DNA from: Flavobacteriales bacterium
Lineage (GTDB): Bacteria; Bacteroidota; Bacteroidia; CAIKAF01
Length of the DNA: 64,000 nt
Assembly (NCBI GenBank): GCA_025451235.1
Contig: JANWKT010000008.1
Span: 372,001-436,000, forward strand
Direction: 5' to 3'
Every line of letters begins with the position of its first letter. The first letter of the stretch is position 1. A model generated the notes under the pieces. That model did not search any database. It had not been told where the DNA came from and saw nothing but the letters and a program-made list of their open reading frames with translations. A program made the translations under genes and the position numbers. Shown piece by piece: positions 4,038-34,617 of this stretch.

Positions 4038-4170
4038 GATCTCATCACCCTAGCTGTTAATTTTTCTTCGGTTACTGTTTTTTTTTACAGTTACAGGGTT
4101 ACTTTTTGGAAATAGATACACTTACTCATGTATCCATCTTTTGGAATCCAAATTGTTTAAACTCATTGTT

Positions 4171-5353: not shown

Positions 5354-5395
5354 CACTCTTAGTCAAAATTGTATATACTAAAAAGAGCGGAAAAT

Positions 5396-6376
5396 ATGCG
5401 TAAATGTCTACTCAGCCTTGTACTTTTAACCGGATTTTTTGGCAGCTTGCGTGCCCAGCAGGACCCTCAATATACCATGTTCTATTTCAACAAAATGCTT
5501 TACAACCCAGCATACGCCGGGGCTAAAGACGGTATTTGCGGTACTATCCTGGGTCGTTTTCAGTGGAATGGTCTTCCGGGAGCTCCTAATACCTGGTTAT
5601 TTACCGCTGACATGCCTTTTAACCTCACCTCAGATGGTAAAAATCAGTTAGGTGTTGGGTTAACCGGATATGGCGATTATATTGGTTTTCAACAGGATCA
5701 TGGTTTAAAAGTAGCTGCTGCATATCGCAGGAGAGACTTGGGTCCTGGTCACTTGGCCGTGGGTATCGACATTGGTTTTTCCAATAAAAATATTGTTGCC
5801 CCTAACTGGATCTATCCTGGTCTGCCTGAACCATTACCCAATGGTCCAACTACCAGTAATTTTGGGTTTGATTTTAGTGCCGGGGTGTATTACCACAACA
5901 CGAACTTTTATGCAGGGTTTTCTGTACTTCACTTAACTGCTTCAGAATTTATCGGATTAAATGTACGTCAGGCCCGCCACATGTACTTTACAGGAGGTTA
6001 CACCTTTGATATTGGGAACACCAACTGGAAACTGAATCCGAATGCGATTATCCGTACAGACCTTGCCACGGCTAATTTTGATATCAATTTAAACGCGTTA
6101 TACGATATCAACGGAACCCATGGAATCTTCTTCGGAGCTACTTACCGCTACATTGATGCCATCGGTATCAACGTAGGTTACAATGGTTCATTCAATGGAG
6201 GTAAAATGGGTATGTTGTTTGGATACAACTACGATATCAATACTTCCAGGTTGAACTCATTCAACTCTGGATCTCATGAGATCATCCTTCGTTTCTGTTA
6301 TAAAATAGAGAAGAACAGAGAGATATATGAAAGATACGTAGTGCGTTTCGGAGATTCAATGAGAACCAGATATTAG
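5396..6376 (+). CDS. PorP/SprF family type IX secretion outer-membrane protein (copy 2)
   Basis: 326 aa, a close paralogue of the protein encoded at 4171-5154. It shares the mature start QQDPQYTMFYFNKMLYNPAY and the RQARHMYFTGGYTF, NPNAIIRTD and GYNYDINTSRL segments at equivalent positions. The signal peptide is MRKCLLSLVLLTGFFGSLRA. An upstream TTG in frame at 5369 was rejected because it lies beyond a promoter-like element and adds only a charged leader. It stands 105 bp before gldK, the position held by porP in the porPKLMN cluster of Porphyromonas, so this copy is the better candidate for the partner of GldK. Confidence 0.93.
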   Translation: MRKCLLSLVLLTGFFGSLRAQQDPQYTMFYFNKMLYNPAYAGAKDGICGTILGRFQWNGLPGAPNTWLFTADMPFNLTSDGKNQLGVGLTGYGDYIGFQQDHGLKVAAAYRRRDLGPGHLAVGIDIGFSNKNIVAPNWIYPGLPEPLPNGPTTSNFGFDFSAGVYYHNTNFYAGFSVLHLTASEFIGLNVRQARHMYFTGGYTFDIGNTNWKLNPNAIIRTDLATANFDINLNALYDINGTHGIFFGATYRYIDAIGINVGYNGSFNGGKMGMLFGYNYDINTSRLNSFNSGSHEIILRFCYKIEKNREIYERYVVRFGDSMRTRY

Positions 6377-6481
6377 TCAAGTGCCCTAAACCGTTAATAA
6401 ACAAGCAAGAACAACAAAAACATACTATTATAAATGAAGCATCGTTTATATAGATACAAATTCACCAAAAACAACAATTAT

Positions 6482-7879
6482 ATGAGGAAATCACTCGTAT
6501 TAGCAGGTATTGCCATTCTGGCACTCAGCAGCTGTAGAGAGTATTATACCGGCCAGCTGGTGGGGGTTGTAAACCGCCCCAGATGGTATCAGGAAGATCC
6601 TTACGGAATGGTTTACATGCCCATGGGTAGTTATAACATGGGAGAAAGTGACCAAGACGTTCCGCAAAACTTTGTTACTCAATCTAAAACAGTTTCTGTT
6701 CAGGCCTTTTATATGGACCAGACAGAGATCAGCAACAATGAGTACCGCCAGTTTGTATATTATGTAAGGGACTCTTTAGCCAGAACCTTGCTTGGAGAAA
6801 ATCTTTCCGAGGAAGACTACTACATTGTAGAGAATGAGTATGGCGAGGAGATTGATCCACCATTGCTGAACTGGAGAACCAGGATCGATGATGATCCGGA
6901 AACCCGTGAGGCATTGGAAGACCTTTATTATCCGGAAGATCAACGTTATTATAGAAGACGGGAGATCGACGTAAATAAATTGATCTTTGAATACACTTGG
7001 GTTGACCTGAAAGCGGCTTCTAAGTATAGCCTTTTGGACAACAAAGAAAAATATCCTGATAAGAATAACTATACTGATTTATTGGAAAAAAACCAGTATA
7101 TGAATTCAGGTGAAAAAACCTTCAAAAAACTGAATAGAAAAGATTTCTTCCGTAAGGAAAGGATCAATATCTATCCGGATACATTGGTTTGGATCCGTGA
7201 TTTCGAATATTCGTATAACGAGCCGATGACCAAAATGTACTTCTGGCATCCAGCTTATGATAACTATCCGGTGGTAGGTATCAACTGGAAACAGGCAAAT
7301 GCTTTCTGTCATTGGAGAACTGAATTGATGAATAACTTCCTTGTGAACTATGGAGACTTCCCGGTACATGATTTCCGTTTACCAACTGAAGCTGAATGGG
7401 AGTATGCAGCTCGTGGTGGTAATGGGAACATTGGGGGTGGAAATGCTTTAAGTCCATATCCTTGGGGAGGTCCTTATATCCGTAACTCCAGAGGTTGTTT
7501 CTTAGGAAACTTTAAACCAATGCGTGGTAATTATATCGACGATGGTGGTTTCCATACCGTACCTGTTGATTCTTACAATCCAAATGATTATGGTTTGTAT
7601 TGTATGGCTGGTAACGTTTCAGAGTGGTGTAGTGTTGCTTTCGAAGAGTCAGGATACAGCTTTATGCATGACCTGAATCCTGATTTGCATTACGATGCAA
7701 AAGATAGTGACCCTCCGGTATTGAAACGTAAAGTGATCCGTGGTGGAAGCTGGAAGGATATTGGTTTCTATATGCAAACCAGTGCCCGTTGGTATGAATA
7801 CCAGGATACAAGCAAAAGCTATATCGGGATCCGTAATGTGCAAACATTTATGGGCCGTGATAAGAGCGATTTTAAATAA
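6482..7879 (+). CDS. gldK: Type IX secretion/gliding lipoprotein GldK
   Basis: 465 aa lipoprotein. The signal ends in the lipobox LSSC (MRKSLVLAGIAILALSSC), so the mature protein is tethered in a membrane through its cysteine. The body is an FGE-sulfatase-type domain: a PMGSYNMG opening, MDQTEISNNEYRQFVYY, RLPTEAEWEYAARGG, GLYCMAGNVSEWC and VIRGGSWKD. GldK/PorK forms a periplasmic ring under the outer membrane with GldN/PorN. The start at 6482 is chosen over an upstream in-frame ATG at 6434 because the lipoprotein signal begins there. It is first in the gldK-L-M-N order, which is conserved in Bacteroidota with T9SS. Confidence 0.96.
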   Translation: MRKSLVLAGIAILALSSCREYYTGQLVGVVNRPRWYQEDPYGMVYMPMGSYNMGESDQDVPQNFVTQSKTVSVQAFYMDQTEISNNEYRQFVYYVRDSLARTLLGENLSEEDYYIVENEYGEEIDPPLLNWRTRIDDDPETREALEDLYYPEDQRYYRRREIDVNKLIFEYTWVDLKAASKYSLLDNKEKYPDKNNYTDLLEKNQYMNSGEKTFKKLNRKDFFRKERINIYPDTLVWIRDFEYSYNEPMTKMYFWHPAYDNYPVVGINWKQANAFCHWRTELMNNFLVNYGDFPVHDFRLPTEAEWEYAARGGNGNIGGGNALSPYPWGGPYIRNSRGCFLGNFKPMRGNYIDDGGFHTVPVDSYNPNDYGLYCMAGNVSEWCSVAFEESGYSFMHDLNPDLHYDAKDSDPPVLKRKVIRGGSWKDIGFYMQTSARWYEYQDTSKSYIGIRNVQTFMGRDKSDFK

Positions 7880-7969
7880 GGTATAATTGCTCCGGCAACT
7901 ATATATATGAGACATTTGGTGTATTAACTTAATTAATTATTCACTTAACCTAATTAAAACAGAACAGTT

Positions 7970-8770
7970 ATGAAATTCCTACACACTAGAAAAGGTAAGA
8001 TTCTTATGAATTTCGTCTACGGTATCGGCGCGTCCGTAGTAATTATTGGCGCCTGGGGAAAGATCATGCACTTTCCATGGGCCAACTTGGCGATTACCGT
8101 GGGTTTATTAACGGAGGCAGTCATTTTCGCTATTTCGGCTTTGGAGCCACCACATGAAGATGTAGATTGGTCTTTGGTTTATCCTGAATTGGCTGGTATG
8201 CCAGGAGAAGGTGGCCATGGAAAAGGTGGTAAAATCGGCAGCGGTGATGCAGTAGCGCAGGAATTAGATAAGCTGTTAAGCGATGCTAAGATCGGACCAG
8301 AGTTGATTGAATCGCTGGGTGATGGTATGCGTAAATTAAGCGATAGCACCAGCAAGTTAAGCACCATTGGTGATGCTGCAGAAGCAAATTCCGCATTTGT
8401 TACAAATATTAAAGCGGCTGCAAGTAACGTCAATAAATTATCCGAATCATATGTAAATGCGGCGAATTCATTAACCGGCATTTCTATGGAAGACGGACAA
8501 AACTATGGAGAACAATTGTCGAGAGTATCTAAAAACCTTTCTGCTTTGAACTCAGTATATGAACTTCAAATTCAGGGATCTAAAGAATATGTGGAAAGCA
8601 GTGCCAAAGCGTATTCTAGCATCAATGAAATGCTTCAGTACTTAAGTCAGTCTGTTGAAGATACTAAACGTTACAAAGAAGAAATTCACGTACTTGGCCA
8701 GAACTTAGCTGCATTGAATACCGTTTACGGTAACATGCTTTCAGCTATGAACTTCCGTCCAAACGCTTAA
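7970..8770 (+). CDS. gldL: Type IX secretion/gliding motor membrane protein GldL
   Basis: 266 aa. Two transmembrane helices near the N terminus (about 14-30 and 38-58) carry the motor signature: Lys31 in GKIMHFPW and Glu49 in GLLTEAVIFA, the position shown to be critical in Flavobacterium GldL. The long C-terminal part is a Ser/Leu-rich helical cytoplasmic domain (repeating SKLS, SLTG, SKNLSALNSVYELQ). GldL surrounds two copies of GldM and uses the proton motive force to drive secretion and gliding. It is 90 bp after gldK and 46 bp before gldM. Confidence 0.96.
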   Translation: MKFLHTRKGKILMNFVYGIGASVVIIGAWGKIMHFPWANLAITVGLLTEAVIFAISALEPPHEDVDWSLVYPELAGMPGEGGHGKGGKIGSGDAVAQELDKLLSDAKIGPELIESLGDGMRKLSDSTSKLSTIGDAAEANSAFVTNIKAAASNVNKLSESYVNAANSLTGISMEDGQNYGEQLSRVSKNLSALNSVYELQIQGSKEYVESSAKAYSSINEMLQYLSQSVEDTKRYKEEIHVLGQNLAALNTVYGNMLSAMNFRPNA

Positions 8771-8816
8771 TTTATACTTGTAATATTATTGTTTAACCTT
8801 TAAACTATAAGAAAAA

Positions 8817-10466
8817 ATGGCAGGTGGTAAATTAACCGCACGGCAGAAGATGATTAACATGATGTACCTCGTGTTAACAGCCCTTTTGGCCTTAAATATA
8901 TCAAAAGAAGTATTGCACGCCTTCGTGGTAGTAAACATTGGTTTATTGCAACAAAAGGCCAATATTGAACAGAAAAATGCGGCTACGATCGATGAGTTTC
9001 AGAATCAGGTAACCATTGCTAAAAATGATCAAAAAATAGCAGGTTATCGTGATGAGGCTTTGGAAGTAGCTAAACTGTCTAAAGAACTGAATGAGTATAT
9101 CGAGCAGATGAAAATTCAGATGGTAATGGCTACTGACGCCGTGGATGAAACCAAGGCTAAAGAAAGAGTTGAAAATCCCTTCAAAGTAGAACGAAAGGAT
9201 GATTACGATAGAACAACCAATTTCTTTGGTACCAGTGAAGCTCCCGGTGATAAAGGTAAAGCAGCTGAATTAAAAGGCAAATTAATAGAGTATAAAAAGC
9301 AATTGCTTTCTCATGTTAAAACACAAAACGCCAAAAAGAAAGCAGATGTGGAGAAAAACCTCTCTATTTTGAACCTTGATGTTCCAAAAGAAGAAGAGCA
9401 TAAAGGAAGCGAAACGCAAAGTAGCTGGGAAATGTTCTACTTCTACCACCAGCCACAATCAGCGGCCTTGGTGGAGCTTACCAAATGGCAAAACATTGTT
9501 CGTGGTGCTGAATCAGAAATCCTGACCTATTTATATGATCAGATCTCTGCTACTGCATTTAAGTTTGATGCTGTATTAGCAGCCATCATTCCAAAATCGA
9601 ACTTTGTTACTTCTGGTTCCATGTTCGAAGCAGATGTGTTTTTAGCAGCCTATTCCTCTTCTGTTAAACCTAAGATCGTTTATGGTACTTCAGTCGATTC
9701 TGCTACAGGTAATGTGGCAGGTGGCCAGGAGCTTACCCCGGATAAATTTACCGCTGATGGTAGAGGTCATATCTCTGTTCCTGCTTCAGGAGCGGGAGAA
9801 AGAACATGCGAAGGTATGATCACGATGACCCATCCAGTTACTGGTAAAGAAGACCATTATCCTTTCAGAACGAAATATAATGTAGCGCCTCCTTCTGCTA
9901 CTGTTTCTGCAACCAAAATGAACGTAATGTATCGTGGTTTGGACAATCCTATCGAGGTATCAGTACCTGGAGTTGCACCAAATAACATCAGCGTTAACAT
10001 TTCTGGTGGATCCATGAGCGGAGGTAACGGAAAATATATTGTAAAACCAGGTGCTGGAAAAGAGATCACCATTTCAGTGGGTGCAAAAAGTGTAGATGGC
10101 AAGTCCACCAGCATGGGATCTTATAAATTCAGGGTAAAATCTGTACCAACTCCTTTAATTACTTGGGCTGGTCAGAAAACCGGTGGAAAAGTAGCTGCTT
10201 CTGCAGCCAGTGGAAACCCGCTGATCCCTAAAATGGAAGACTTTGACTTCGATGTATATTCTGTGATCAACTCCTTTAGTATTGCCTTTAGTTTAAATGG
10301 ATCTTACTTCGCTAAAAATGGAGTAAATGGTAATCAAATACCAAATGATATTTCCAGCAAGATTAGGACATTACCGAAGGGAACTAAAATTTATTTCGAT
10401 GACATTAAAATAACTGTACCAGGCGGTGAGAGAAGGACTTCGTCAGCAGTATTTAGCATCCAATAA
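8817..10466 (+). CDS. gldM: Type IX secretion/gliding motor protein GldM
   Basis: 549 aa. A short N-terminal stretch with Arg9 (LTARQK) leads into one transmembrane helix (about 13-28) that pairs with GldL. The large periplasmic part holds the four known domains (D1-D4): helical D1 (NIGLLQQKANIEQ, AKERVENPF, NFFGTSEAPG), then the beta domains starting around GSMFEADVFLAAY and HPVTGKEDHYPF, with D3/D4 from about residue 355 (ATVSATKMNVMYRGLDNPI). It transmits motor rotation across the periplasm to the GldK/GldN ring. A shortened paralogue lies at 29351-30427. Confidence 0.96.
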   Translation: MAGGKLTARQKMINMMYLVLTALLALNISKEVLHAFVVVNIGLLQQKANIEQKNAATIDEFQNQVTIAKNDQKIAGYRDEALEVAKLSKELNEYIEQMKIQMVMATDAVDETKAKERVENPFKVERKDDYDRTTNFFGTSEAPGDKGKAAELKGKLIEYKKQLLSHVKTQNAKKKADVEKNLSILNLDVPKEEEHKGSETQSSWEMFYFYHQPQSAALVELTKWQNIVRGAESEILTYLYDQISATAFKFDAVLAAIIPKSNFVTSGSMFEADVFLAAYSSSVKPKIVYGTSVDSATGNVAGGQELTPDKFTADGRGHISVPASGAGERTCEGMITMTHPVTGKEDHYPFRTKYNVAPPSATVSATKMNVMYRGLDNPIEVSVPGVAPNNISVNISGGSMSGGNGKYIVKPGAGKEITISVGAKSVDGKSTSMGSYKFRVKSVPTPLITWAGQKTGGKVAASAASGNPLIPKMEDFDFDVYSVINSFSIAFSLNGSYFAKNGVNGNQIPNDISSKIRTLPKGTKIYFDDIKITVPGGERRTSSAVFSIQ

Positions 10467-10486
10467 AAACTTAATTTGCCAAAAAC

Positions 10487-11368
10487 ATGAAACAACTAAT
10501 CATCATTTTCAGCTTAGCCCTCACAGGTTTGATCAATGTATCAAGCTTTGCGCAGGGAGGTGGAATTGTATTGAATCCTGATACCCCTCGTGATGGGTAT
10601 TATGATAAGATACATTATCCAAGCCGCAGGGTAGTTCCTTATCCATACTTAAGGGAAGCCGATGTAATGTGGACCCGCAGAGTATGGAGAATCATCGACC
10701 TGAGAGAAAAAATCAATCAGCCGATGTATTATCCTACCAGGCCTACTAACTTGCGTAAAAACCTCATCTACATTTTACAGGAAGCCGTTATCGGTGGCGA
10801 AAAACCAGCGATGATCAAAGGTTATGATCCTTTTAATGGGGATGACTTCAAAGTTGAAATGACAGTGGCTGAAATCAAAGGTATCGGTGCAAGTGTCGAT
10901 TCAGGTAAAGTTACCCGTCCATACCCACCTTATGATGAGTTTGACACGGTATATACTACTGACTTCGACCCAGCCAATGTAAAGCAATACAGGGTAAAGG
11001 AAGACTGGTATTTCGATAAGCAACGTTCTATAATGGAACCACGTATTTTAGGTATTTGCCCACGGATGGCAGTGTACGATAAAAATACAGGCGAATTTCG
11101 TGATTACCAGGATATGTATTGGTTATACTTCCCTGAAGTACGTAAAGTACTTGTAAATGAGGAAGTGTACAATCCATATAACTTCGGTGCCCGTATTACT
11201 TATGATGATTTGTTCATGAAACGAATGTTTAACAGCCTTATTTATAAAGTGGATAATACCTACGATCGTCGTATTGAAGAATACGTGAAAGGTATTGATG
11301 CCTTGTTGGAGGCAGAAAATATCAAAGACATTATATTCAAGTTCGAACATGATGTCTGGGAGCAATAA
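10487..11368 (+). CDS. gldN: Type IX secretion/gliding protein GldN
   Basis: 293 aa secreted protein with signal MKQLIIIFSLALTGLINVSSFAQ. It shows the GldN/PorN signatures YLREADVMWTRRVWRIIDLR, YDPFNGDDFKVEMT, EDWYFDKQRS, RILGICPRMAVYDKNTGEF and DLFMKRMFNSLIYKVDN. GldN binds GldK to form the periplasmic ring and contacts GldM. It is 20 bp after gldM and followed within 20 bp by a strong hairpin terminator, which marks the end of this operon. Only the first 40 residues differ strongly from the second copy downstream. Confidence 0.96.
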   Translation: MKQLIIIFSLALTGLINVSSFAQGGGIVLNPDTPRDGYYDKIHYPSRRVVPYPYLREADVMWTRRVWRIIDLREKINQPMYYPTRPTNLRKNLIYILQEAVIGGEKPAMIKGYDPFNGDDFKVEMTVAEIKGIGASVDSGKVTRPYPPYDEFDTVYTTDFDPANVKQYRVKEDWYFDKQRSIMEPRILGICPRMAVYDKNTGEFRDYQDMYWLYFPEVRKVLVNEEVYNPYNFGARITYDDLFMKRMFNSLIYKVDNTYDRRIEEYVKGIDALLEAENIKDIIFKFEHDVWEQ

Positions 11369-11388
11369 TCCTAAAATCACTTAACGCT

Positions 11389-11422
11389 AAAAGCCGTCCC
11401 GTTTAAAACAGGACGGCTTTTT
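11389..11422 (+). terminator. rho-independent terminator after gldN
   Basis: AAAAGCCGTCC (11389-11399) pairs perfectly with GGACGGCTTTT (11411-11421), with further T residues after it. It ends the gldKLMN transcript and separates it from the second gldN copy. Confidence 0.88.
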
Positions 11423-11488
11423 AGTTTAACAACATTCGGATAATTTATTGACCCATTTTTTCGTTTTATAGGTTCAACTCACCAAAAT

Positions 11489-12313
11489 ATGAAACGACTG
11501 ATTTTATTTATCAGCACGGGTATTCTTCTTTTGCCCTCTCTCTATGCACAACCTGTTCTACTCCCCGGCCGACGGCTGGTTCCTTATGCCTATATCCGTG
11601 AGGCCGACGTCATGTGGTCAAAAAGGATATGGAGGATCATTGACCTCCGCGAGAAACTCAACCAAACCATGTATTATCCCCTTCAACCCAACAACCTTCG
11701 GAAAAGCCTTATTTATGTATTGCAGGAGGCCGTGATCGGAGGAGAGCAGCCACCGATGATCAAAGCATATGATCCTTTTAATGGAGATGATTTTAAAGTG
11801 GAAATGACCGTTGCAGAGCTCAAGAGCATTGGATCCAGTTTGGATTCGGGTAAGGTAACCCGACCTTATCCTCCCTATGATGAAATTGATACAGTATATG
11901 CCACCGATTTTGACCCTGCCAATGTAAAACAATACCGGATCAAGGAAGATTGGTACTTCGATATGAAGCGATCGGTGATGGAGCCCCGCATTTTAGGTAT
12001 CTGTCCACGGATGGCGGTATATGATAAAAATACCGGAGAGTTCAGGGATTATATGGATATGTATTGGTTATACTTCCCAGAAGTTCGAAAAGTGCTGCTG
12101 GATGTACGGGTATATAACCCCTACAATTTGGCGTCTACTATTACGTATGATGACCTGTTTATGAAAAGGATGTTCAGCAGCCTTATCTATAAGGTTGATA
12201 ATAATTACGATCGGCGGATCGAAGAATATGTAAAAGGGATCGATGCTTTGTTAGAAGCGGAAAGTATCAAAGACATGATCTTTAAATTTGAACATGATGT
12301 TTGGGAGCAATAG
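11489..12313 (+). CDS. GldN paralogue (GldO-like)
   Basis: 274 aa, with signal peptide ending near LLPSLYAQ. From YIREADVMWSKRIWRIIDLR to the C terminus it follows the preceding GldN almost residue for residue, including AYDPFNGDDFKVEMT, ILGICPRMAVYDKNTGEF and DLFMKRMFSSLIYKVDN. The mature N terminus is shorter by about 20 residues. In Flavobacterium johnsoniae gldN is likewise followed by a paralogue, gldO, with partly redundant function; whether this pair is the same duplication or an independent one cannot be told here. A terminator separates it from gldN, so it may be expressed separately. Confidence 0.92.
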   Translation: MKRLILFISTGILLLPSLYAQPVLLPGRRLVPYAYIREADVMWSKRIWRIIDLREKLNQTMYYPLQPNNLRKSLIYVLQEAVIGGEQPPMIKAYDPFNGDDFKVEMTVAELKSIGSSLDSGKVTRPYPPYDEIDTVYATDFDPANVKQYRIKEDWYFDMKRSVMEPRILGICPRMAVYDKNTGEFRDYMDMYWLYFPEVRKVLLDVRVYNPYNLASTITYDDLFMKRMFSSLIYKVDNNYDRRIEEYVKGIDALLEAESIKDMIFKFEHDVWEQ

Positions 12314-25023: not shown

Positions 25024-25914
25024 ATGCCAACTTATACTGAACCCATGCTCAAGGAAGGAAGCCTCAAAGGCCGCACCATATTGGTTACCGGCGGAGGAAG
25101 CGGATTGGGTAAATCTATGTCGAAATATTTTTTACAACTAGGGGCCAACGTCATTATTTGCAGCCGAAAACTGGAGAAGATCAACAAGGCGGTGGAGGAA
25201 CTTCATGCCGAGACCGGAGGAAATATTACAGGATATGCCTGTGATGTTCGTAATTACGAAGAGGTGGAAAATGTGATCAAACAAGGAGTGGAAAAATATG
25301 GTGAGATCAATGGATTGGTGAACAATGCGGCCGGGAATTTCATTAGTCCAACCGAACGGTTGAGTCACCGGGCATTTGATACAGTAGTGGACATTGTTTT
25401 AAAAGGATCTTATAATTGCTCTTTAGCCTTGGGAAAATATTGGATTGAAAAAAACATCAAGGCATCCGTGTTGAGCATAGTAACTACCTATGCATGGGTA
25501 GGGAGTGGATATGTGGTTCCTTCGGCCTGTGCGAAGGCGGGAGTATTGGCCATGACCAAATCATTGGCAGTGGAATGGGGAAAATATGGATTAAGGTTCA
25601 ATGCCGTTGCACCCGGACCTTTCCCCACCAAAGGAGCATGGGATCGTTTATTTCCTAAAGAATTCATGGATGCATTGGACATCAACAATAAAATTCCGGT
25701 AGGCAGGGTAGGGGAACACCAGGAATTGGCCAATCTTGCCGCCTATTTAATGAGTGATTATTCAGCCTATATCAATGGAGATGTGATCACCATCGATGGG
25801 GGAGAATGGATGCAGAATGGGGGAGAATTTACCTGGGTGGGCAATATGATCCCCAAGGAAATGTGGGATATGGTGGAAGCATCCATCAAAGGAAAATCTA
25901 AAGAGAAAGAATAA
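25024..25914 (+). CDS. 2,4-Dienoyl-CoA reductase-like SDR oxidoreductase
   Basis: 296 aa short-chain dehydrogenase. TGGGSGLGKSMSKYF is the NADP-binding loop and CDVRNYEEV and NNAAGNF follow. The usual catalytic Tyr of YxxxK is absent: the site reads SACAKAGVLAMTKSLAVEWG. Loss of that Tyr with a retained Ser/Lys is characteristic of mitochondrial/peroxisomal-type 2,4-dienoyl-CoA reductases, which reduce unsaturated fatty acyl-CoA during beta-oxidation. The C-terminal PFPTKGAWDRLFP segment is also typical of that group. It is monocistronic; the acyl-CoA dehydrogenase at 38.8 kb could supply the same pathway. Confidence 0.85.
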   Translation: MPTYTEPMLKEGSLKGRTILVTGGGSGLGKSMSKYFLQLGANVIICSRKLEKINKAVEELHAETGGNITGYACDVRNYEEVENVIKQGVEKYGEINGLVNNAAGNFISPTERLSHRAFDTVVDIVLKGSYNCSLALGKYWIEKNIKASVLSIVTTYAWVGSGYVVPSACAKAGVLAMTKSLAVEWGKYGLRFNAVAPGPFPTKGAWDRLFPKEFMDALDINNKIPVGRVGEHQELANLAAYLMSDYSAYINGDVITIDGGEWMQNGGEFTWVGNMIPKEMWDMVEASIKGKSKEKE

Positions 25915-26283
25915 TAAAGAAGTTAGACCGCTGCACTTTTAGACATCAGACTTTATCTAACATCTAAGGTCTAACATCTCAAGTCTTTCTTTGGGTGTCA
26001 TCATCTGGCTACTTGCTCCTATCTGGGCCGCTAGATCTTGACGAAAGGCTCTTCTCAGCCGTTCCAACGAATGTGGAAATCAGAGCGGTGTTACGATCAG
26101 AGGGAGTGACGGAGAGGGAATAAATTGAAAGATCAGCCCATTCCAACATTCCTGTCAACCTGTTCATAAATGATTTTTTGATTTTTCAACCGGTTTTGAA
26201 CAAAACTAATTTGATCAACCTCTTGAAATGATAAGAATTAGCGTAAATTTAGGTACTGCAATCGGTAGTTAGCTAACACCTAA
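25915..26283. other. gene-free gap before the cassette cluster
   Basis: 369 bp with no credible gene. The first 75 bases form a loose inverted repeat of TTAGACATCTAAC words (GTTAGAC at 25922, GTCTAAC at 25969). A more GC-balanced stretch follows (26000-26150) with no recognisable feature. The last part is AT-rich and ends in the core site at 26268, where the cassette-like region begins. Confidence 0.5.
26268..26274 (+). other. left cassette boundary, GTTAGCT core site
   Basis: GTTAGCT lies 16 bases before the ATG of the first cassette gene. The nine bases after its G (TTAGCTAAC) are complementary to the start of the site found after that gene at 27005-27014, as expected when both ends derive from one circular cassette. 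Upstream I see no inverted partner, so this may be attI-like, a decayed attC or a secondary insertion site. Confidence 0.45.
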
Positions 26284-26988
26284 ATGTCAACAAGAAAAAA
26301 ACTGACAAAAAAAGAAGTTCAAGCAATTATTGACTTGGAAGGCAAACTTCATGAGGAGTATTCGAACTTTTTTACGAGGACTTATCCTTCGGGACTTGTT
26401 GAAGAAAATCTCATTTATGAATTGCCTGGTGACAGATTTCTTTTCGTGCTGGCTCCTAATGAAAAATTTGGAGGAAAAGGATTTGTATATGCCAAAGACG
26501 AATTATTGAGGTCAATAAACTGGAACAAGCGACTACAAAAAGATAATGAACTTGGCATAAATGGATCTGTACCTCACTGGCGCCATTATTCGAAGCACAA
26601 AGCAACCCTTATTGACAAGATTGATGACCTTATTTTAGACTTATCAATCGACTTAAAGATAGACCCTAAGATTCTTGATAAAAGTTATGAGAGTTTAGAC
26701 ATATTATCCGACATGACTGAAAAGTATAATGTGGACAAGGCCGTTGAAAACATATATGACAATCTTGTTGCTTATATCGGAGAGGTGCTTAGACTTCGTG
26801 TAAAAGGGAACTGGCAAATTAACGAAAAGTTTTACGGTGGAGACTATCCCTACATTGACATAGGAAATGAACGAATTCAACTTATGCCTATCAATATTGT
26901 TTGGGAATGCCTTAGCGGACTGAACCCTGTGAATTTTAGAAAAGAAGTAGGAAACGAAGTTAGGCGTGGAAAAATTAAAATGATGTGA
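26284..26988 (+). CDS. Hypothetical protein, integron-type cassette gene 1
   Basis: 234 aa, no family recognised. The N-terminal third has KEVQAIIDLEGKLHEEY and ELPGDRFLFVLAPN. The C-terminal third contains NLVAYIGEVLRLRVKGNW followed by YPYIDIGNERIQLMPIN, a pattern seen in uncharacterised bacterial proteins but to which I can assign no function. No signal peptide, soluble. It fills a cassette-sized unit (26269-27171) with only 15 bases of leader and no visible promoter. Its stop is 19 bases before the attC-like site. Confidence 0.7.
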   Translation: MSTRKKLTKKEVQAIIDLEGKLHEEYSNFFTRTYPSGLVEENLIYELPGDRFLFVLAPNEKFGGKGFVYAKDELLRSINWNKRLQKDNELGINGSVPHWRHYSKHKATLIDKIDDLILDLSIDLKIDPKILDKSYESLDILSDMTEKYNVDKAVENIYDNLVAYIGEVLRLRVKGNWQINEKFYGGDYPYIDIGNERIQLMPINIVWECLSGLNPVNFRKEVGNEVRRGKIKMM

Positions 26989-27007
26989 TGAATTTTGAAG
27001 AGGCGTT

Positions 27008-27177
27008 AGCTAACTCCAATTTTATAAAATTGCCTACAACCATTATATATCAAAGCTTTCAGCACTTCACCCGCTTGGGCGTATTAAAATAATTTACGCC
27101 TTGCTGGTCTTTTTAGATATGATTAAAGTTTTGTACCTTTAATACCGGCAACTTTATAAAATTTGGTTTCGTTAGCT
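27008..27177 (+). other. attC-like recombination site 1 (170 bp)
   Basis: Begins AGCTAAC (matching RYYYAAC except at one base) and ends GTTAGCT (near GTTRRRY). The segments next to the ends are inverted partners: AATTTTATAAAATTGCC (27018-27034) and GGCAACTTTATAAAATT (27147-27163), separated from the cores by short unpaired spacers. Inside, GGCGTA and TACGCC form a second stem. About 110 bases of the interior (from GCACTT at 27062) closely match the second site at 27893-28005. This is the layout of an integron attC, longer than most known ones. Confidence 0.72.
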
Positions 27178-27191
27178 GCAAGCTGAAAAAA

Positions 27192-27848
27192 ATGATTGAC
27201 TACAACAAAATATTTGAAATCTCAGATTGGCTTTCTAATAGACCATTTAGAGGTGAAATTGCAAAGTATGCCTTGGCTGAGCCTGAAATTTCACGAGGAG
27301 AAAAAGATGTAAAGGGAATTGTTACTATAAAGCATGCAATGGGTGGAAAAACCCTGTATGATATTATATGGACTACCAATGCATACCCGTTGGTCGTAAG
27401 CGAAAGAATAATAGACTTGTTTAAGTCAAACGGAATTACTGGTTGGAAAACTTATAAGGTTCAAATCCGCTCAAAAAAGAACGAGTTGATCGACCAAAAA
27501 TATTTTGGACTGATTATAACAGGGCGTTGTGGATATAGAGATTATTCTAAAAGCTCAATAGTTTTGGACAAAATTGGTATATATATTGAACCTCATATCA
27601 AAGGTTTTTACTTTGACAAAGATTATTGGGATGGTTCTGACTTATTTATGAGTAACCCAGATCAAAACGGCGATACGACAATGTATCGTTTTTGTACTCA
27701 AAAAGTTGTAGATCTATTCGAAAAAGAAAAAATAAAGAACATTCTTTTTGAGAATCTAAATGATTCTACATTGGCAATTGAATTGTATGACGTACCACTG
27801 ACTGCTAAACAAAAATCTGAAATGAAGATATTAAAAGCCAGCAGCTAA
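27192..27848 (+). CDS. Cassette gene 2: possible Imm11/Imm43-like immunity protein
   Basis: 218 aa soluble protein. YPLVVSERIIDLFKSNGITG followed by TYKVQIRSKK resembles the DUF1629/Imm11-type immunity pattern (a central domain found beside polymorphic toxins), but the match is by eye and weak. No toxin gene is adjacent. It starts 15 bases after the GTTAGCTGC core of site 1 and its TAA stop codon overlaps the start of site 2 (GCAGCTAAC). The first eight bases of its unit, TTAGCTGC, are exactly complementary to GCAGCTAA at its far end, the sign of a once-circular cassette. Confidence 0.65.
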   Translation: MIDYNKIFEISDWLSNRPFRGEIAKYALAEPEISRGEKDVKGIVTIKHAMGGKTLYDIIWTTNAYPLVVSERIIDLFKSNGITGWKTYKVQIRSKKNELIDQKYFGLIITGRCGYRDYSKSSIVLDKIGIYIEPHIKGFYFDKDYWDGSDLFMSNPDQNGDTTMYRFCTQKVVDLFEKEKIKNILFENLNDSTLAIELYDVPLTAKQKSEMKILKASS

Positions 27849-28012
27849 CTTACAACTTACAAAATCTCCTAGATCCCTCTAAAATCAATACTTCTGCACT
27901 TAACCCGCTTGGGCCTTTTTAAATAATTTAAGCCCTGCTAGTCTTTTTAGATTTGATTAAAGTTTTGTACATTTAAAGTCCGGCCACTTTGTAAAATTTG
28001 AGGTCGTTAGGT
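27843..28012 (+). other. attC-like recombination site 2 (170 bp)
   Basis: Starts AGCTAAC and ends GTTAGGT, which matches GTTRRRY exactly. It is the same length as site 1 and shares long identical stretches with it (for example CCCGCTTGGGC, TAGTCTTTTTAGAT with one change, TGATTAAAGTTTTGTAC). Its inner hairpin differs in sequence from that of site 1 but stays paired (GGGC-TT with AAGCCC versus GGCGTA with TACGCC), suggesting that folding is conserved. Confidence 0.72.
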
Positions 28013-28025
28013 GTAACTATAATTC

Positions 28026-28634
28026 ATGAATCGAATCTTCTACGTAATAATAATTCTTCTGGCCGCATGCGGAAAGTCGGCTGAAAAATCAGTCGATTCA
28101 CCAGTACTGAATGATAAAGAGAAAATGGTAGACCCGGGTCAAAAAAAGGAAGTTAAACAAGAATCCCAAATTAACAAGGATGAGTTTGACATTAAGCTAC
28201 TCATCGAAGCTGATGGTGATAAATATTATGATCCTGAGTCCGAGTTTTATTATAACGTCGGTTATGACAATGAGGTGTATTTTGTTCCTGGTGACAAGCC
28301 TGTTGTAAAGATTCCGGGCTGGGACCTATTGATATCTGAAAACGCTGTTGAATTCAAAAAAGCAAAGACCCCTAACAAAGCTCCGTTGAATTACAAAATG
28401 GATGAAAAGCTTGATACGTTTCATGTCAAAGTTATTGATACAGGAATGGCTTGTGATGATACCCGCGAAAATAAGGTGATCATTGAGAATGCCAAACAGT
28501 ATAGCGTTATTGAAAAGTTAGCTAAGGTGGCAATATTTAAGAATTGTATCGGTAATAAACAGGAATTATATATTGTTTCTTATCATCAATGCCTACTGCC
28601 AGATCTTAAAATTCACCGAATTCGATGTAAATAG
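28026..28634 (+). CDS. Cassette gene 3: hypothetical lipoprotein
   Basis: 202 aa. MNRIFYVIIILLAAC is a lipoprotein signal with lipobox LAAC, followed by a Lys/Glu/Ser-rich linker and a domain of unknown family (FYYNVGYDNEVYFVPGDKP, KVIDTGMACDDTRENKVII, LYIVSYHQCLLPDLKIHRIRC). Four cysteines in the mature part could form disulfides. It starts 14 bases after the core of site 2. The expected matching end, something like CACCTAAC, is not found downstream, so its right boundary may be lost. Confidence 0.65.
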   Translation: MNRIFYVIIILLAACGKSAEKSVDSPVLNDKEKMVDPGQKKEVKQESQINKDEFDIKLLIEADGDKYYDPESEFYYNVGYDNEVYFVPGDKPVVKIPGWDLLISENAVEFKKAKTPNKAPLNYKMDEKLDTFHVKVIDTGMACDDTRENKVIIENAKQYSVIEKLAKVAIFKNCIGNKQELYIVSYHQCLLPDLKIHRIRCK

Positions 28635-28856
28635 AATGGATCCATTAGACAGTTTTTTGTAAAAAATATGGAACAGGACATAATTATCAGCTCAAACTGG
28701 CGAAATATGGTGGCGTCTAACATATTCTGCAAATATCCCCATTCTGCCAGGATTTTTTAAAATTTTGAAACCAATCAACCGCCTCACCGTATGAATGGAA
28801 AGTTTCTATATTTATAACTAACCCTATTTACAAATCCTGTTCCATTGATCTATAAA

Positions 28857-29324
28857 ATGCTCTTTGCACTTGCGGTACTCTTTGGAGTATACCAGCTGTT
28901 TCAAACGAAGGACATTTTTTCGCTTGTCATTCTGGGTGCACAAGTAATTGCACTTGTGCTCACCTTTATTACTGTGAAGCAAATCAAATTTGCAGGAGGA
29001 CTGGTTTTTGGATTGACACTGGTGATGAGTATCATTTACGGCTTCGTAAAAAATGACATCAGAATATCAAAACGAGTGCTGATCCTTTTTTCGGCAGGTT
29101 GGGTCCTGTTCATATACCTGGTTCCTGTATTTCATCGGAACGATTTAAGGATCCTGGGGCTGGCCATGATCATTCCGATTGGAGCATATATTGTGCTGCT
29201 GGCAAAAGATCTTAAAAGCTATAGAAATGAACTGGGATTCCTAACGATTATTTTAATTGCTGGACTTTCACAATTCATAGAAAGTTTAGAAATTTTCGAT
29301 ATCATTAGGTTACCATTTACCTAA
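28857..29324 (+). CDS. Hypothetical multi-pass membrane protein
   Basis: 155 aa, almost entirely hydrophobic with about six possible helices (FALAVLFGVYQLF, SLVILGAQVIALVLTF, GLVFGLTLVMSIIYGFV, VLILFSAGWVLFIYLV, LAMIIPIGAYIVLLA, ILIAGLSQFI). No family recognised. It has no resemblance to GldL, although the next gene is a GldM paralogue. The ATG at 28857 is preferred over an upstream TTG. First of four + genes with gaps of 18-27 bp. The 222-bp gap before it contains TTAGAC (28645) and GTCTAAC (28715), possible remnants of cassette ends, and nothing else recognised. Confidence 0.6.
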   Translation: MLFALAVLFGVYQLFQTKDIFSLVILGAQVIALVLTFITVKQIKFAGGLVFGLTLVMSIIYGFVKNDIRISKRVLILFSAGWVLFIYLVPVFHRNDLRILGLAMIIPIGAYIVLLAKDLKSYRNELGFLTIILIAGLSQFIESLEIFDIIRLPFT

Positions 29325-29350
29325 AACAACGAACCATTTAAAATTATTTT

Positions 29351-30427
29351 TTGATGAATAACTCAACCAATACTAAAAGCAGGCTAGTCCGCATCGTTAT
29401 CTTGTCCATTTTAAGTATCGTAGTTTGTATATATATATACGATGCACATCAAAGGTCGTTGGAAAGAAGCAGGGGTTTACGGTCTTTCGCCGTCATTAAC
29501 ATAGGATTGATGCAACAAAAGGAAAATACCGAAGAATCGAATATGGGGATCATCCATGAATTGTCGAATCAAACCGTCATATCTCCCAAGGATGCAAGGA
29601 TCAAGAATCTCCAGCAAAATGCGTTGGAGGTCGGGACCTTAGCCAAAGAGCTGAATGATTGGATCGAGGAGATGAAGATTGAGCTGGTGGCAACGACTGA
29701 TGGTTGTGATCAAGCCAAAGCTAAGGAAAGGGTCTTGAATCCCTTAACGGTAGTGAGAAAAGGAAATTCCAGCAGACCTACCCACTTCTTTGGAACGGAT
29801 CATCCTCCTGGAACCACTGGAAAAGCACATGAACTAAAAGATAGACTTGAAAAGTATCGAGAAAAACTATTATCCTTTGTGGTATCGAAATACCATAAAG
29901 AAAAAATGAAAAAGAAACTTTCCACCCTTTACTTTGATTCATCAGATGACGCAGAATCCGCTGCATGGGAAATGTTCCATTTTTACGACCTGCCACTTTC
30001 GGCGGCATTGGTTGAGCTAACCAGGTGGCAAATCATCGTACGAAGTGCGGAGAATGAAGTGCTAGGTTATTTTTTGGACCAGACATCGGCTACCTCCTTT
30101 AAATTTGATGCTGTAATGGCGGTTATTGTACCCAAATCCACCGTTGTCAATGCTGGTTCTATGTTTGAAGCGGATGTAATTTTAGCAGCATACAGTACTC
30201 ATGTCAAACCCCTCATCATATATGGAACCTCTGTTGATACTATCGCAGGTGAAGTGAGGGGAGGCGTACAGCTACCACCAGAAAAATTCAGCAATGGCAG
30301 GGGGCATATTTCCATTCCAACATCAGGAACGGGTACAAGAACTTGTGCTGGGGTGGTCAGGCTGGTGAATCCTGTTACAGGACAGTTAATCAATTATACT
30401 TTCAGTACAAACTATCAAGTTAAATAA
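29351..30427 (+). CDS. Truncated GldM paralogue with a different membrane anchor
   Basis: 358 aa. From FAVINIGLMQQK to the C terminus it aligns without large gaps to residues 36-354 of GldM in this window (shared KELN, MKIE/MKIQ, AKAKERV/TKAKERV, HFFGT/NFFGT, WEMF, SAALVELT, FKFDAV, GSMFEADV, KP.IYGTSVD, GRGHIS, NPVTG/HPVTG), roughly half identical by eye. D3 and D4 (about 195 residues) are absent. The N terminus is unlike GldM: Arg9 and the GldL-pairing helix are replaced by SRLVRIVILSILSIVVCIYIY and an Arg-rich loop. It therefore should not pair with GldL or reach the GldKN ring. It lies in a four-gene row beside the cassette cluster; function unknown. Confidence 0.85.
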   Translation: MMNNSTNTKSRLVRIVILSILSIVVCIYIYDAHQRSLERSRGLRSFAVINIGLMQQKENTEESNMGIIHELSNQTVISPKDARIKNLQQNALEVGTLAKELNDWIEEMKIELVATTDGCDQAKAKERVLNPLTVVRKGNSSRPTHFFGTDHPPGTTGKAHELKDRLEKYREKLLSFVVSKYHKEKMKKKLSTLYFDSSDDAESAAWEMFHFYDLPLSAALVELTRWQIIVRSAENEVLGYFLDQTSATSFKFDAVMAVIVPKSTVVNAGSMFEADVILAAYSTHVKPLIIYGTSVDTIAGEVRGGVQLPPEKFSNGRGHISIPTSGTGTRTCAGVVRLVNPVTGQLINYTFSTNYQVK

Positions 30428-30453
30428 AGGCTGAAATATATTAAATTCATACC

Positions 30454-30861
30454 ATGAAAATATTCTATATATGTATCTTTTCTTTGATAGCCGCACCTTT
30501 ATTTGGACAAAATATTGTGTTTCACGATCCATCTTCAAAACTTCCCCAGACCATTCAGGTTCAAGGAACCATTGTGGGTATTTCTAAAGGTTATTGCGGG
30601 GTTTTTTGTACTGGGGGTGTGATCAAGGTTGAGCTGGATAAAAAAATAGAAGGTTATACGGACTCCTTTGTGTATTTAGTGACTGCCTGCTTGTCCATGG
30701 ATGTGAAGACCAAAACGGTGGTGAATGTAACTGCCACCCAATTGACCGGTGACGAAACGGAATGTTATTATGAATCTATTAGTAATCATTTTGATTCTAA
30801 GGGGACACCTTTTTATAAATTATCAGAATCTGAGACAAGAAAGATTAATTCAGTAAAGTAG
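30454..30861 (+). CDS. Hypothetical secreted protein
   Basis: 135 aa with signal peptide MKIFYICIFSLIAAPLFGQ. The mature part has YCGVFCTGGVIKVEL and VTACLSMDVKTKTVVNVTATQL, with four cysteines and beta-rich composition, and resembles a small OB-like or sandwich domain, though I recognise no family. It lies 26 bp after the truncated GldM paralogue and 18 bp before the next gene, probably in one transcript. Confidence 0.6.
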   Translation: MKIFYICIFSLIAAPLFGQNIVFHDPSSKLPQTIQVQGTIVGISKGYCGVFCTGGVIKVELDKKIEGYTDSFVYLVTACLSMDVKTKTVVNVTATQLTGDETECYYESISNHFDSKGTPFYKLSESETRKINSVK

Positions 30862-30879
30862 CCCCTATCTTATATTTCA

Positions 30880-31458
30880 ATGAGCACCAACATAGAAAAA
30901 ATAAAACAATTAGGAAGGGACCATATGATCCAGATGGGGATCCGCATTATTCAGGAACATATCGATGCTAAAATTGACATAAACGCATTTGATCGGATCA
31001 TGGTAAAGGCCAATACCACCCGTATCATGGTTGAATTTTCCAACCCCGTAAAATTTATACCCTTCAATTCGTCTCATTTTTACGATGTAGAGGTGGATAT
31101 CATAGGTGGAGGAATTTCCTATAGCATATTTTCTAATCCTTCCGACCTTGAATCGGGATCTTTGACTGATCCTTTTTATTTCATGACCAAGGAAGCAGAA
31201 CAACATATCCAATTCGTGATAGATGCCCTGAATGGAGAAAATGTGCAGGAGGATAGAAAAACCTTTGGGCAATACATGGATGGATATCTTATCATTCGTG
31301 ATAAGGAAGGACATTACCAAATTGAAAGGACTTCGGATTACCAGGAATCATGGTATAAAATAGATAAAATGTCGGGCGAAATTTACGATGCCGGGCATTG
31401 TCATTTAGAACCCTATCCGGATGATGAAGAGGATAAATATGTTGAAATAAAAGAATAG
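30880..31458 (+). CDS. Hypothetical soluble protein
   Basis: 192 aa, no signal or membrane helix, no family recognised. Features: MVKANTTRIMVEFSNPVKFIPF, GGGISYSIFSNPSDL, and an acidic C-terminal end (EPYPDDEEDKYVEIKE). Last of the four-gene + row. It ends 4 bp from the convergent lipoprotein gene, with no terminator visible between them. Confidence 0.55.
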   Translation: MSTNIEKIKQLGRDHMIQMGIRIIQEHIDAKIDINAFDRIMVKANTTRIMVEFSNPVKFIPFNSSHFYDVEVDIIGGGISYSIFSNPSDLESGSLTDPFYFMTKEAEQHIQFVIDALNGENVQEDRKTFGQYMDGYLIIRDKEGHYQIERTSDYQESWYKIDKMSGEIYDAGHCHLEPYPDDEEDKYVEIKE

Positions 31459-31462
31459 AGGG

Positions 31463-31873
31463 TTACGGAATTCTTTCGAACGTTACCGCTGCATCACCAG
31501 AGGCCGCCATATTATCTACCAACTGAATGATATGATCTGTCCTGTTTTCCTGCTGCCAATCATGTAGCAGCATAAACAGTTGGAAATGTCCACCAAAATC
31601 CAGGAGCACCTTGGGATTATCCTGACTTGCGTTGGTCCTGTACCAGGTACCATGGAAGGTGGAATCGGGTCTGATGGCATGTACTACCTCGTTCCCTTCG
31701 AAATTGAAAGTATATAAAGCAAAAGTGGGGGTTTCATCCACATTCGCATGTTTCATATAGGTGATCTTCCAGTTATATGCCAGTAAATGATCTTCCAAAG
31801 GGGCATGGGCGCCTGGAGCGCAGGATGCTAGCAAAATGAGCAGGGATACTATAATAAATATCTTATTTTTCAT
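31463..31873 (-). CDS. Hypothetical lipoprotein
   Basis: 136 aa with lipobox LASC (MKNKIFIIVSLLILLASC). The remainder (LLAYNWKITYMKH, YTFNFEGNEVVHA, GTWYRTNASQDNPKVLLDFG) has the look of the lipocalin-like small outer-layer lipoproteins common in Bacteroidota (a W-x-I opening and a late ILLDFG strand). Function unknown. Confidence 0.6.
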   Translation of the reverse strand: MKNKIFIIVSLLILLASCAPGAHAPLEDHLLAYNWKITYMKHANVDETPTFALYTFNFEGNEVVHAIRPDSTFHGTWYRTNASQDNPKVLLDFGGHFQLFMLLHDWQQENRTDHIIQLVDNMAASGDAAVTFERIP

Positions 31874-31980
31874 ATTTGTTGAGATTAAAACACTACAAGT
31901 TAATGAAATCCGTTTACTAAGTCAGGCTTTTTTGAACTAACCACTCCCTTTTTTGCATAATTTGGCTTTTGGTTTACAAC

Positions 31981-32922
31981 ATGATCAAGCACTTGATACT
32001 TTTATTTTTCTCTTTGGCGGCATTGAACCTGTTTGCCCAATATACCATTTGTGATTGTTGTACCTATGCCCCTCTTGAATTCAGAGATGATTTTGAGAAC
32101 CTATTCCCTCCGGAGATCATTCAAAAGAACCATATCCATGAACTTACCATCTATACTACTTCTAAAAGAGAATCGAAAAACTCATGGGATACCATATTAA
32201 AAACAGTTGACTACGAATTCAAGGAAATGGCCTTTCAATTTAATGAAGATGGATACGTGATGTCGCAGACCCTCTTTGGTGATTTTGGAAAACCCCATAT
32301 TATCTATGAATATACCCGAAATAAAAAGAACCATATTTTAGCCAAAAACTTCTACTACTTAGACAGCCTGGGAACTAAATACGATTTTATGCAACAAAAA
32401 TGGATCTATACCCAAGCGAAAGGAAGGATCGTAAAAGTAAAAGAGCTCGGCCCAAAATTTGTCAAAATGCCAGATGCTAAGAGTAATTATTCATCTTATA
32501 AGTACAATAAACTAGGGCGACCCATTGAAGAAGTACAGCAGTATTATTTTGGAGAGAACAACATATCCTATTATAAATCAGAAATTGTATATAACGATTC
32601 AATGGATTCTTCCTTAACCACAACCAAAAGGAAAGACCTTCTTCATTCTTCCACTCAAATTGCTTATAATCGAAACAATCAGCCCACGAACGAAAAATAT
32701 TTTGACGGCGAGACAGGGACCCTTTTACAGGAAAAAATATGGAACTATGATCCAAACAACCGATTGGTGAGGTATCAAGTGATCAGCACTGGCATGGGAA
32801 CTGAATGCCCCGATGGAGGAAGTTTTACGGATGTATATACCTATTCTTTCTTGAACCTGATAGAAACCATTACACATAGTTATACAAATGTAACCTGTGT
32901 ATTGAGATTTGAATATAAATGA
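31981..32922 (+). CDS. Secreted protein with YD/RHS-like repeats
   Basis: 313 aa with signal MIKHLILLFFSLAALNLFAQ and a cysteine cluster CDCC right after it. Several segments follow the YD-repeat pattern (YEYTRNKKNHIL, YKYNKLGRPIEEVQQYYFG, IAYNRNNQPTNEKYFDG, WNYDPNNRLVRYQV). Likely a small surface or periplasmic beta-structure protein; no toxin domain is attached. An upstream in-frame TTG at 31969 was rejected in favour of the ATG. Convergent with the FadL-type porin across an inverted repeat. Confidence 0.6.
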   Translation: MIKHLILLFFSLAALNLFAQYTICDCCTYAPLEFRDDFENLFPPEIIQKNHIHELTIYTTSKRESKNSWDTILKTVDYEFKEMAFQFNEDGYVMSQTLFGDFGKPHIIYEYTRNKKNHILAKNFYYLDSLGTKYDFMQQKWIYTQAKGRIVKVKELGPKFVKMPDAKSNYSSYKYNKLGRPIEEVQQYYFGENNISYYKSEIVYNDSMDSSLTTTKRKDLLHSSTQIAYNRNNQPTNEKYFDGETGTLLQEKIWNYDPNNRLVRYQVISTGMGTECPDGGSFTDVYTYSFLNLIETITHSYTNVTCVLRFEYK

Positions 32923-32962
32923 AGGGTTGCGCCAGGTATAGGAGTGATATCCTATTTGTTGG

Positions 32963-33080
32963 CACCGAAGTACGAACTCCTGCCTGCTGGCAGACAGGTT
33001 TTGCGAACCTACGAACTACGAACCGCACGATTGATGGCTTGTAGTTTGTAAGTTCGTATTGTTTTATTCGTACTTCGGTG
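32963..33080. repeat. inverted repeat element, CACCGAAGTACGAA arms
   Basis: 14-base arms at 32963-32976 and 33067-33080 are perfectly inverted. Between them are variants of a TACGAAC word and a small palindrome (CCTGCCTGCTGGCAGACAGG). The right arm, 33052-33080, recurs on the opposite strand at 41378-41406 with one mismatch in 29. It lies between two convergent genes, so it may serve as a terminator. Confidence 0.8.
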
Positions 33081-33120
33081 AAAATAAAAAGAGAGCCGCC
33101 CTAAAATCATCAATTGAAAC

Positions 33121-34617
33121 CTATCTTTTCAAATAATAGGTATACCCAATGATGAGCGAAATAGAATGCACATTCGCCCGGATGGTTTCATCCTGCAAAC
33201 CTTGTAAGGCTAAATAATCTCCCTCAGGTGTAATGGAGATCTGTGGTTCCGTTAAATTAATGAGCTGACGTTTGAAAGCGGTTGCACCTACACCATAATT
33301 TAAACCGAAGGTAATATCGCTACCCCCTTTTTTATAGGTTATTCCCCCGCTAAAGTGCAGGTAATGGTTATAGGCCTGGTTGAGTCGGTTGGAGATGATC
33401 GCTTTGTTATTGGCTGCTTGGAATCCATTGTTAAAATCGGTTCTTGCACCTAAATACAAGGTGGTCCTTTTACCAATCTTTTGTTCGAAGCCAAGTCCAA
33501 CATTCAGCACCGGCGAATGACTGGCATTCAATTCCATAAAAGGTTGTTTGTAGGGGAGGTTGTTATATTGATCCGTAGGTCTGATAAGTACTGTATCGTC
33601 GCTTTGGGCGATCCTATAATCGGGGACGGGGAAAAAATATTCTCCAGTAAAAGTGATCTTTGAATTGGTCTTTGGAAAATCATATTCCATTCCAAAACTA
33701 ATGCTGAAGGGGCTCCGCATTTGTGTTCTCAAATTGTTCTTATCATCCGAAACCAACCAACTGGGAAATCTTCCTATAGGAAGTGAGTCAGGGAGAAAAC
33801 GGTCCTGGTTATTGTATTCAAGTGTTCTTCCAATTCTTGTAAATCCAAACAAAGAAATATTGGGAGTGGTAAGTGTAATACCCAGTTTAAATTTCTCCCA
33901 GTTAAACTGGAAACCCAGTTTCCATAAAAGTCCGAAATGATCTACATTATTGTATTCATAGCTGCTGAATTTTGCCATATATACTGAATCCGGATCAGGA
34001 TGGTCTACATCGGCCGTAGCAAAAGTTTTCCTGAATCCATCGTAATGCGAATAGGATACAAAGGTGGTAACACCAAATGCAAAGAAAGGAGTGAATTTAT
34101 ATCCGATCGCGAATCCTCCCCATTGAGTAATGGAACTGAGTTCATAATCAAAAGTTCCATAATAATATTGGGCGGTATCGTAAGGAGTAACGATGATGGG
34201 ATAATTCGGATAGGTCATATCCGCATGCATTTTTACTTCGCTCCTATACCTGGTAAGCAGACCATAGGCCAGTTTTAATTTGGGAACGAACTTAAATTTC
34301 ACCATACCCGAAATGAACTGGGGATATACCAGGATCTTCATAGAATTCAGGTCGAGATTGGTACCCGCCCCGTTTTTCAACTGCATAAAATCCATTCCAT
34401 ATGCGTTGGCAGATACATTTAAATGAGAGCTATCAATATAGGCAATACCACCTGGATTATAATATAAGGCCGAATTATCCTGCACTCCACCAACTACGCA
34501 TCCACCCATTAATGAAGAACGGGAGCCATATTGCTGTGACCAATAGTTGCTTTGGGAGAAGCCATTCATCCCAATGAAAGCTAAACATAAACTAAAAAGT
34601 ACAGTGATTCTTTTCAT
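33121..34617 (-). CDS. OmpP1/FadL-family outer-membrane transport protein
   Basis: 498 aa. Signal MKRITVLFSLCLAFIGMNGFSQ. RSSLMGGCVVGGVQDNSALYYNPGGIA is the hallmark N-terminal hatch region of the FadL/OmpP1/TodX group, and the protein ends in a tyrosine-rich strand (IGYTYYLKR) as barrels do. Members import long-chain fatty acids or hydrocarbons across the outer membrane. The fatty-acid genes at 25 and 38.8 kb make a lipid substrate plausible. A TAnnTTTG element lies 29 bases before the start. Confidence 0.9.
   Translation of the reverse strand: MKRITVLFSLCLAFIGMNGFSQSNYWSQQYGSRSSLMGGCVVGGVQDNSALYYNPGGIAYIDSSHLNVSANAYGMDFMQLKNGAGTNLDLNSMKILVYPQFISGMVKFKFVPKLKLAYGLLTRYRSEVKMHADMTYPNYPIIVTPYDTAQYYYGTFDYELSSITQWGGFAIGYKFTPFFAFGVTTFVSYSHYDGFRKTFATADVDHPDPDSVYMAKFSSYEYNNVDHFGLLWKLGFQFNWEKFKLGITLTTPNISLFGFTRIGRTLEYNNQDRFLPDSLPIGRFPSWLVSDDKNNLRTQMRSPFSISFGMEYDFPKTNSKITFTGEYFFPVPDYRIAQSDDTVLIRPTDQYNNLPYKQPFMELNASHSPVLNVGLGFEQKIGKRTTLYLGARTDFNNGFQAANNKAIISNRLNQAYNHYLHFSGGITYKKGGSDITFGLNYGVGATAFKRQLINLTEPQISITPEGDYLALQGLQDETIRANVHSISLIIGYTYYLKR

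Follow-up and report, generated by a model that had tools for sequence, protein, structure and literature searches.

The window studied here, a stretch of 64,000 nucleotides, encodes in addition to a canonical GldM a short copy that comprises only a membrane anchor and the first two periplasmic domains, D1 and D2. We propose, with a probability of roughly 0.6, that this short copy is a retained GldM paralogue uncoupled from both the GldL motor and the GldKN ring, which would work by binding, as a periplasmic D1-D2 dimer anchored in the inner membrane. We know of no natural negative regulator and no D1-D2 form of GldM, and a search of the open-access literature found neither. The weight of the finding is limited because this is a single-genome case; the short copy nevertheless offers a ready tool for finding out on which GldM regions dimerisation and torque depend, and is useful for asking about the re-use of GldM domains outside the T9SS.

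Domain content and membrane anchor

The frame is listed from a TTG at 29351 (ORF 29351-30427), immediately followed by an ATG at 29354, which is the likelier start (Table 1). Pfam recognises GldM_1st (2.3e-27) and GldM_2nd (9.8e-14) in the short copy and gives no match to D3 or D4; GldM1, the canonical GldM of the window, matches all four domains. The NCBIfam model TIGR03517 scores 138.9 bits against a family cut-off of 180, which is not reached because the match covers only profile positions 33-319 of 524. In the alignment the short copy ends with NYQVK and a stop codon, against KYNVAPPSATV in GldM, and the frame therefore terminates at the D2/D3 border. No remnants of D3-D4 or of the GldM transmembrane segment were found by tblastn in any frame of 28600-32000. 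Truncation by a frameshift or a contig end was rejected, given that the frame stops at a domain border and lies inside a 502-kb contig. Both GC and GC3 are native to the genome.

Table 1. Positions in the window of the short copy, its parts and related or adjoining genes
Feature	Position	Strand	Basis and remarks
GldM paralogue (short copy), TM anchor, D1 and D2 only, 357 aa	29354..30427	+	ORF, Pfam, alignment, fold
N-terminal transmembrane helix of short copy, LVRIVILSILSIVVCIYIY	29384..29440	+	Hydropathy; unrelated to GldM TM helix
D1 (GldM_1st) of short copy	29477..30076	+	Pfam PF12081, residues 43-242 (numbered from TTG)
D2 (GldM_2nd) of short copy	30092..30421	+	Pfam PF21601, residues 248-357; includes strands swapped between GldM dimer chains (PMC5790014)
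Canonical full-length GldM (GldM1), 549 aa, four domains	8817..10466	+	Pfam, TIGR03517, tree
GldL, only strong GldL in the genome	7970..8770	+	Profile match
Hydrophobic 159-aa protein upstream, with several TM segments by eye	28845..29324	+	29 bp before short copy
Downstream secreted-looking protein	30454..30861	+	26 bp after short copy; no family found

The hydropathy of the short copy peaks at 2.58 over 19 residues (residues 11-29), with K and R ahead of the stretch, and no signal-peptidase or lipobox motif is seen by eye at this anchor. Over 32 columns the N-terminus is 12.5% identical to that of GldM, whereas GldMs of the family share 80-86% with one another over their first 35 residues. 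The alignment places in the short copy no counterpart of the conserved MAGG...RQKMINMMYLVLTALLALN..SKE segment, in which R9 and the E31 position lie. GldL and GldM contact each other through their transmembrane helices only (PMC8986121), whereas the output side lies distally, with PorN binding located in D4 and PorK binding requiring D2-D3 plus D4 (PMC5790014). Judged from these homologues, both the drive and the output contacts would be absent from the short copy, and since the parts for contacting GldL, PorN and PorK are missing, it would not be a normal motor subunit.

The short copy could perceivably still belong to the T9SS motor if its D1-D2 paired with a full-length GldM, either as a stator part or as a length variant with its anchor outside the GldL ring. 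The conserved D2 swap region is in keeping with such a role, as are the extra T9SS copies of this genome (a second full-length GldM, two gldN and two porP-like genes); however, the GldLM complex, as cited in PMC8986121, places two GldM helices within five GldL, and the anchor of the short copy carries no GldM transmembrane sequence, which makes this role quite unlikely. Pfam, TIGR03517, alignment and tblastn confirm the description given in the first-pass annotation, a GldM paralogue truncated before D3 with an unrelated N-terminal helix that lacks Arg9. Its statement that D1/D2 are kept closely holds in the sense of 53% identity to the GldM of the same window (50% for D1, 62% for D2), and the homologue data (PMC8986121, PMC5790014) support its view that the protein is unfit as a normal motor subunit.

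Origin and distribution

In the D1-D2 tree the short copy clusters with the operon-type GldM1s of its own and of one same-genus genome (support 97/92) and falls outside the pair formed by these two GldM1s (support 90/83). The duplication predates the split of the two species in the best tree; a later duplication, with the short copy as sister of one GldM1 alone, is not rejected by the AU test (p 0.16-0.17). On the strength of these sequences, the short copy descends from the GldM1 lineage. After duplication of the canonical gldM in this genus, one copy would have lost D3-D4 and exchanged its motor helix for an ordinary signal-anchor helix.

Four D1 proteins are encoded in the genome itself. 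Apart from GldM1 and the short copy, these are a full-length GldM2 (contig C7) and a lipoprotein that has D1 only (contig C44). In the same-genus genome (77% complete), GldM1 and GldM2 are the sole proteins to pass the family cut-off. No orthologue of the short copy was found in 60 relatives (15 of them from the same family) and 16 genomes of the order, nor among 79 named GldM loci or in 27 D2-bearing genomes; in the class-wide search only the best-scoring matches are listed, so that a distant short copy could escape. Phages yielded no relatives, and plasmids only one gldM, 22% identical. Several other short GldM frames were considered and set aside, those of G001 (C144), G115, L117, L133 and the like lying at contig ends and that of G022 resembling a frameshift. 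The short copy is the sole D1-D2-only frame in the genomes and loci searched for which neither explanation applies.

Purifying selection or decay

One competing view is that the short copy is a formerly working GldM variant, now silenced and drifting towards loss. This would be consistent with its long branch (0.57; those of the GldM1s, at 0.21-0.25, are about half as long), with the failure to find an orthologue in the searched genomes, and with the alteration of four invariant residues (H213D, N228I, F277I and E329T). Against it, the frame is open and GC3 native, the stop lies precisely where D2 gives way to D3 and nothing of the lost part is left, and most family-invariant residues are still there. 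Across 18 GldMs of the family, 44 columns are invariant; the short copy retains 40 of these residues, compared with 130 out of 268 elsewhere (Fisher p 4.5e-8). When half of the 350 observed nucleotide differences were placed randomly on GldM1 as the starting sequence, the open frame survived in only 2 of 1000 runs (0.2%), and a mean of 29 and a maximum of 39 of the 44 invariant residues were left. There are no stop codons within the actual frame. The loss of constraint at conserved sites that marks a decaying gldM pseudogene was thus not found, and we consider silencing to be very unlikely.

Since dS is saturated, pN/pS and residue conservation were used instead of a codon-level dN/dS. For the short copy pN/pS is 0.37-0.45 and, because the synonymous sites are saturated, the true ratio is expected to be lower; measured against the GldM1s alone pN/pS is 0.37-0.41, and between the two GldM1s it is 0.31. 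As the short copy is without an orthologue and dS is saturated, constraint is deduced on a single branch. With this scope, its sequence identifies the short copy as a retained, folded protein under purifying selection on one branch. The earlier claim that it is not decaying agrees with the invariant residues, the neutral simulation and pN/pS alike. The same annotation had named, as what would overturn it, the combination of no orthologues with a dN/dS near one; the former was encountered in everything searched, the latter was not.

Genomic neighbourhood

The T9SS operon of the window runs in the order of two porP/sprF-like genes, gldK, gldL, gldM and two gldN; the porP/sprF-like genes (4141-5154 and 5369-6376) and the gldN genes (10487-11368 and 11489-12313) each form a tandem pair. 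The gldKLMN operon (6434-12313) holds its own gldM, and the short copy begins some 17 kb past its end. A partner GldL for the short copy was sought and dismissed, the genome having one strong GldL and a weak GldL_N-like protein on contig C44. A 161-aa protein with a GldL_N-like hairpin (FKILHWSFANLTL), encoded at L082:1180-1665 (-), adjoins a methionyl-tRNA synthetase-like frame.

The 159-aa protein encoded immediately upstream matched no known family in the profile search. It was rejected as a conserved operon partner, as its one clear relative (32%) sits in an unrelated setting and keeps no link to GldM. The number of sites returned by promoter scans of the interval did not exceed the chance expectation.

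The short copy is located in a variable interval of accessory genes (25914-33121) that extends from an SDR gene to an outer-membrane protein gene, and this setting away from a T9SS operon speaks against our preferred reading. The syntenic interval of the same-genus genome has a wholly different content: the short copy is absent, and the genes there encode a hydrolase, a PPIase and further secreted proteins. This difference, together with a weak Imm11-like gene at 27192-27848, 1.5 kb upstream, would fit a variable island of the immunity or cargo type with the short copy as one of its accessory genes, a GldM look-alike that shields against, or titrates, a GldM-targeting agent. The Imm11 match stays under its cut-off (20.6 vs 22.1 bits), however, PADLOC finds nothing in the interval, and neither phages nor plasmids offer a relative closer than the single gldM mentioned above. 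A mobile or defence gene is thus unsupported, and we regard the island origin as highly improbable.

Predicted fold and mode of action

An AlphaFold2 monomer built from a 10-row alignment (mean pLDDT 77.7, pTM 0.57) shows a helical D1 and a beta-type D2, with a single long helix that connects the anchor to D1 and continues into it. Foldseek retrieves PorM (7cmg, 1.6e-11) and GldM (6ey4, 1.2e-9) with this model, as well as chains of GldLM and PorLM, and a sequence search also returns the GldM family. GldM dimers pack via helix 1 of D1 and swap strands of D2 (PMC5790014), and the sequence of both regions is retained in the short copy. The similarity of its D2 strands 1-2 to those of GldM1 is 69%, compared with 72% for GldMs of other genera, and across the individual structural elements the short copy resembles GldM1 about as much as a GldM from another genus does.

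Our preferred reading, that of a retained paralogue uncoupled from motor and ring, can be put in mechanistic terms as follows. The anatomy would place the short copy at the inner membrane, its D1-D2 part facing the periplasm, where it would very probably dimerise by way of helix 1 of D1 and by swapping D2 strands. GldL would be unable to turn it and GldN and GldK would be out of its reach; being neither driven nor able to reach the ring, the dimer would act only by binding near the inner membrane. This binding can perceivably take two forms. First, mixed dimers with GldM1 or GldM2 would put motors out of use. Second, the short copy could serve as a short homodimeric scaffold. The two options are near even, with a slight preference on our part for the scaffold, given that self-pairing is the more frequent outcome in an obligate dimer that has half diverged; a D1-D2 duplicate diverged to this extent may be incapable of mixed dimers. 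That the short copy is a natural, selected brake of T9SS or gliding motors, a GldM stub acting from the inner-membrane side in mixed strand-swapped dimers with GldM, is an idea that we consider unlikely.

Comparison with known systems

With GldM/PorM, the T9SS motor shaft (TIGR03517; PF12081, PF21601, PF21602, PF12080), the short copy shares D1 and D2, the fold and a single N-terminal inner-membrane helix. It differs in lacking the D3/D4 part that reaches GldN/GldK, in its unrelated anchor with the R9 and E31 positions unmatched, in its location outside the gldKLMN operon and in scoring below the equivalog cut-off.

GldM2 (L037:6775-8433, -) is likewise a GldM paralogue of this genus encoded off the operon, and is distant from any gldL; unlike the short copy, it has four domains and a normal anchor with R9 and occurs in the same-genus genome too. 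The D1-only lipoprotein (L036:7458-8213, -), which carries a diverged GldM D1 (PF12081, 4.5e-5), resembles the short copy as a GldM-derived periplasmic domain on another anchor without the distal domains, but it has D1 alone with a lipobox-like signal, is about 28% identical to the short copy, and is independent and far more diverged.

D1 without D2-D4 also occurs in single-chain proteins encoded at L038:3590-4693 (-), L039:3758-5038 (-), L040:3687-4937 (-) and L041:2752-4896 (+), in which, in contrast to the short copy, two GldL-like transmembrane hairpins bearing the FKxxHWPGA motif are fused ahead of D1 (PF22827 and PF12081), and D1 is followed in one of them, L041, by a SpoIIE-type phosphatase domain. 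The L040 protein finds matches at E<=1e-10 in 35 of 119 sampled genomes of the class, some of them to the hairpins alone. By their sequences these proteins resemble a family of GldL-GldM single chains that may have a role in signalling.
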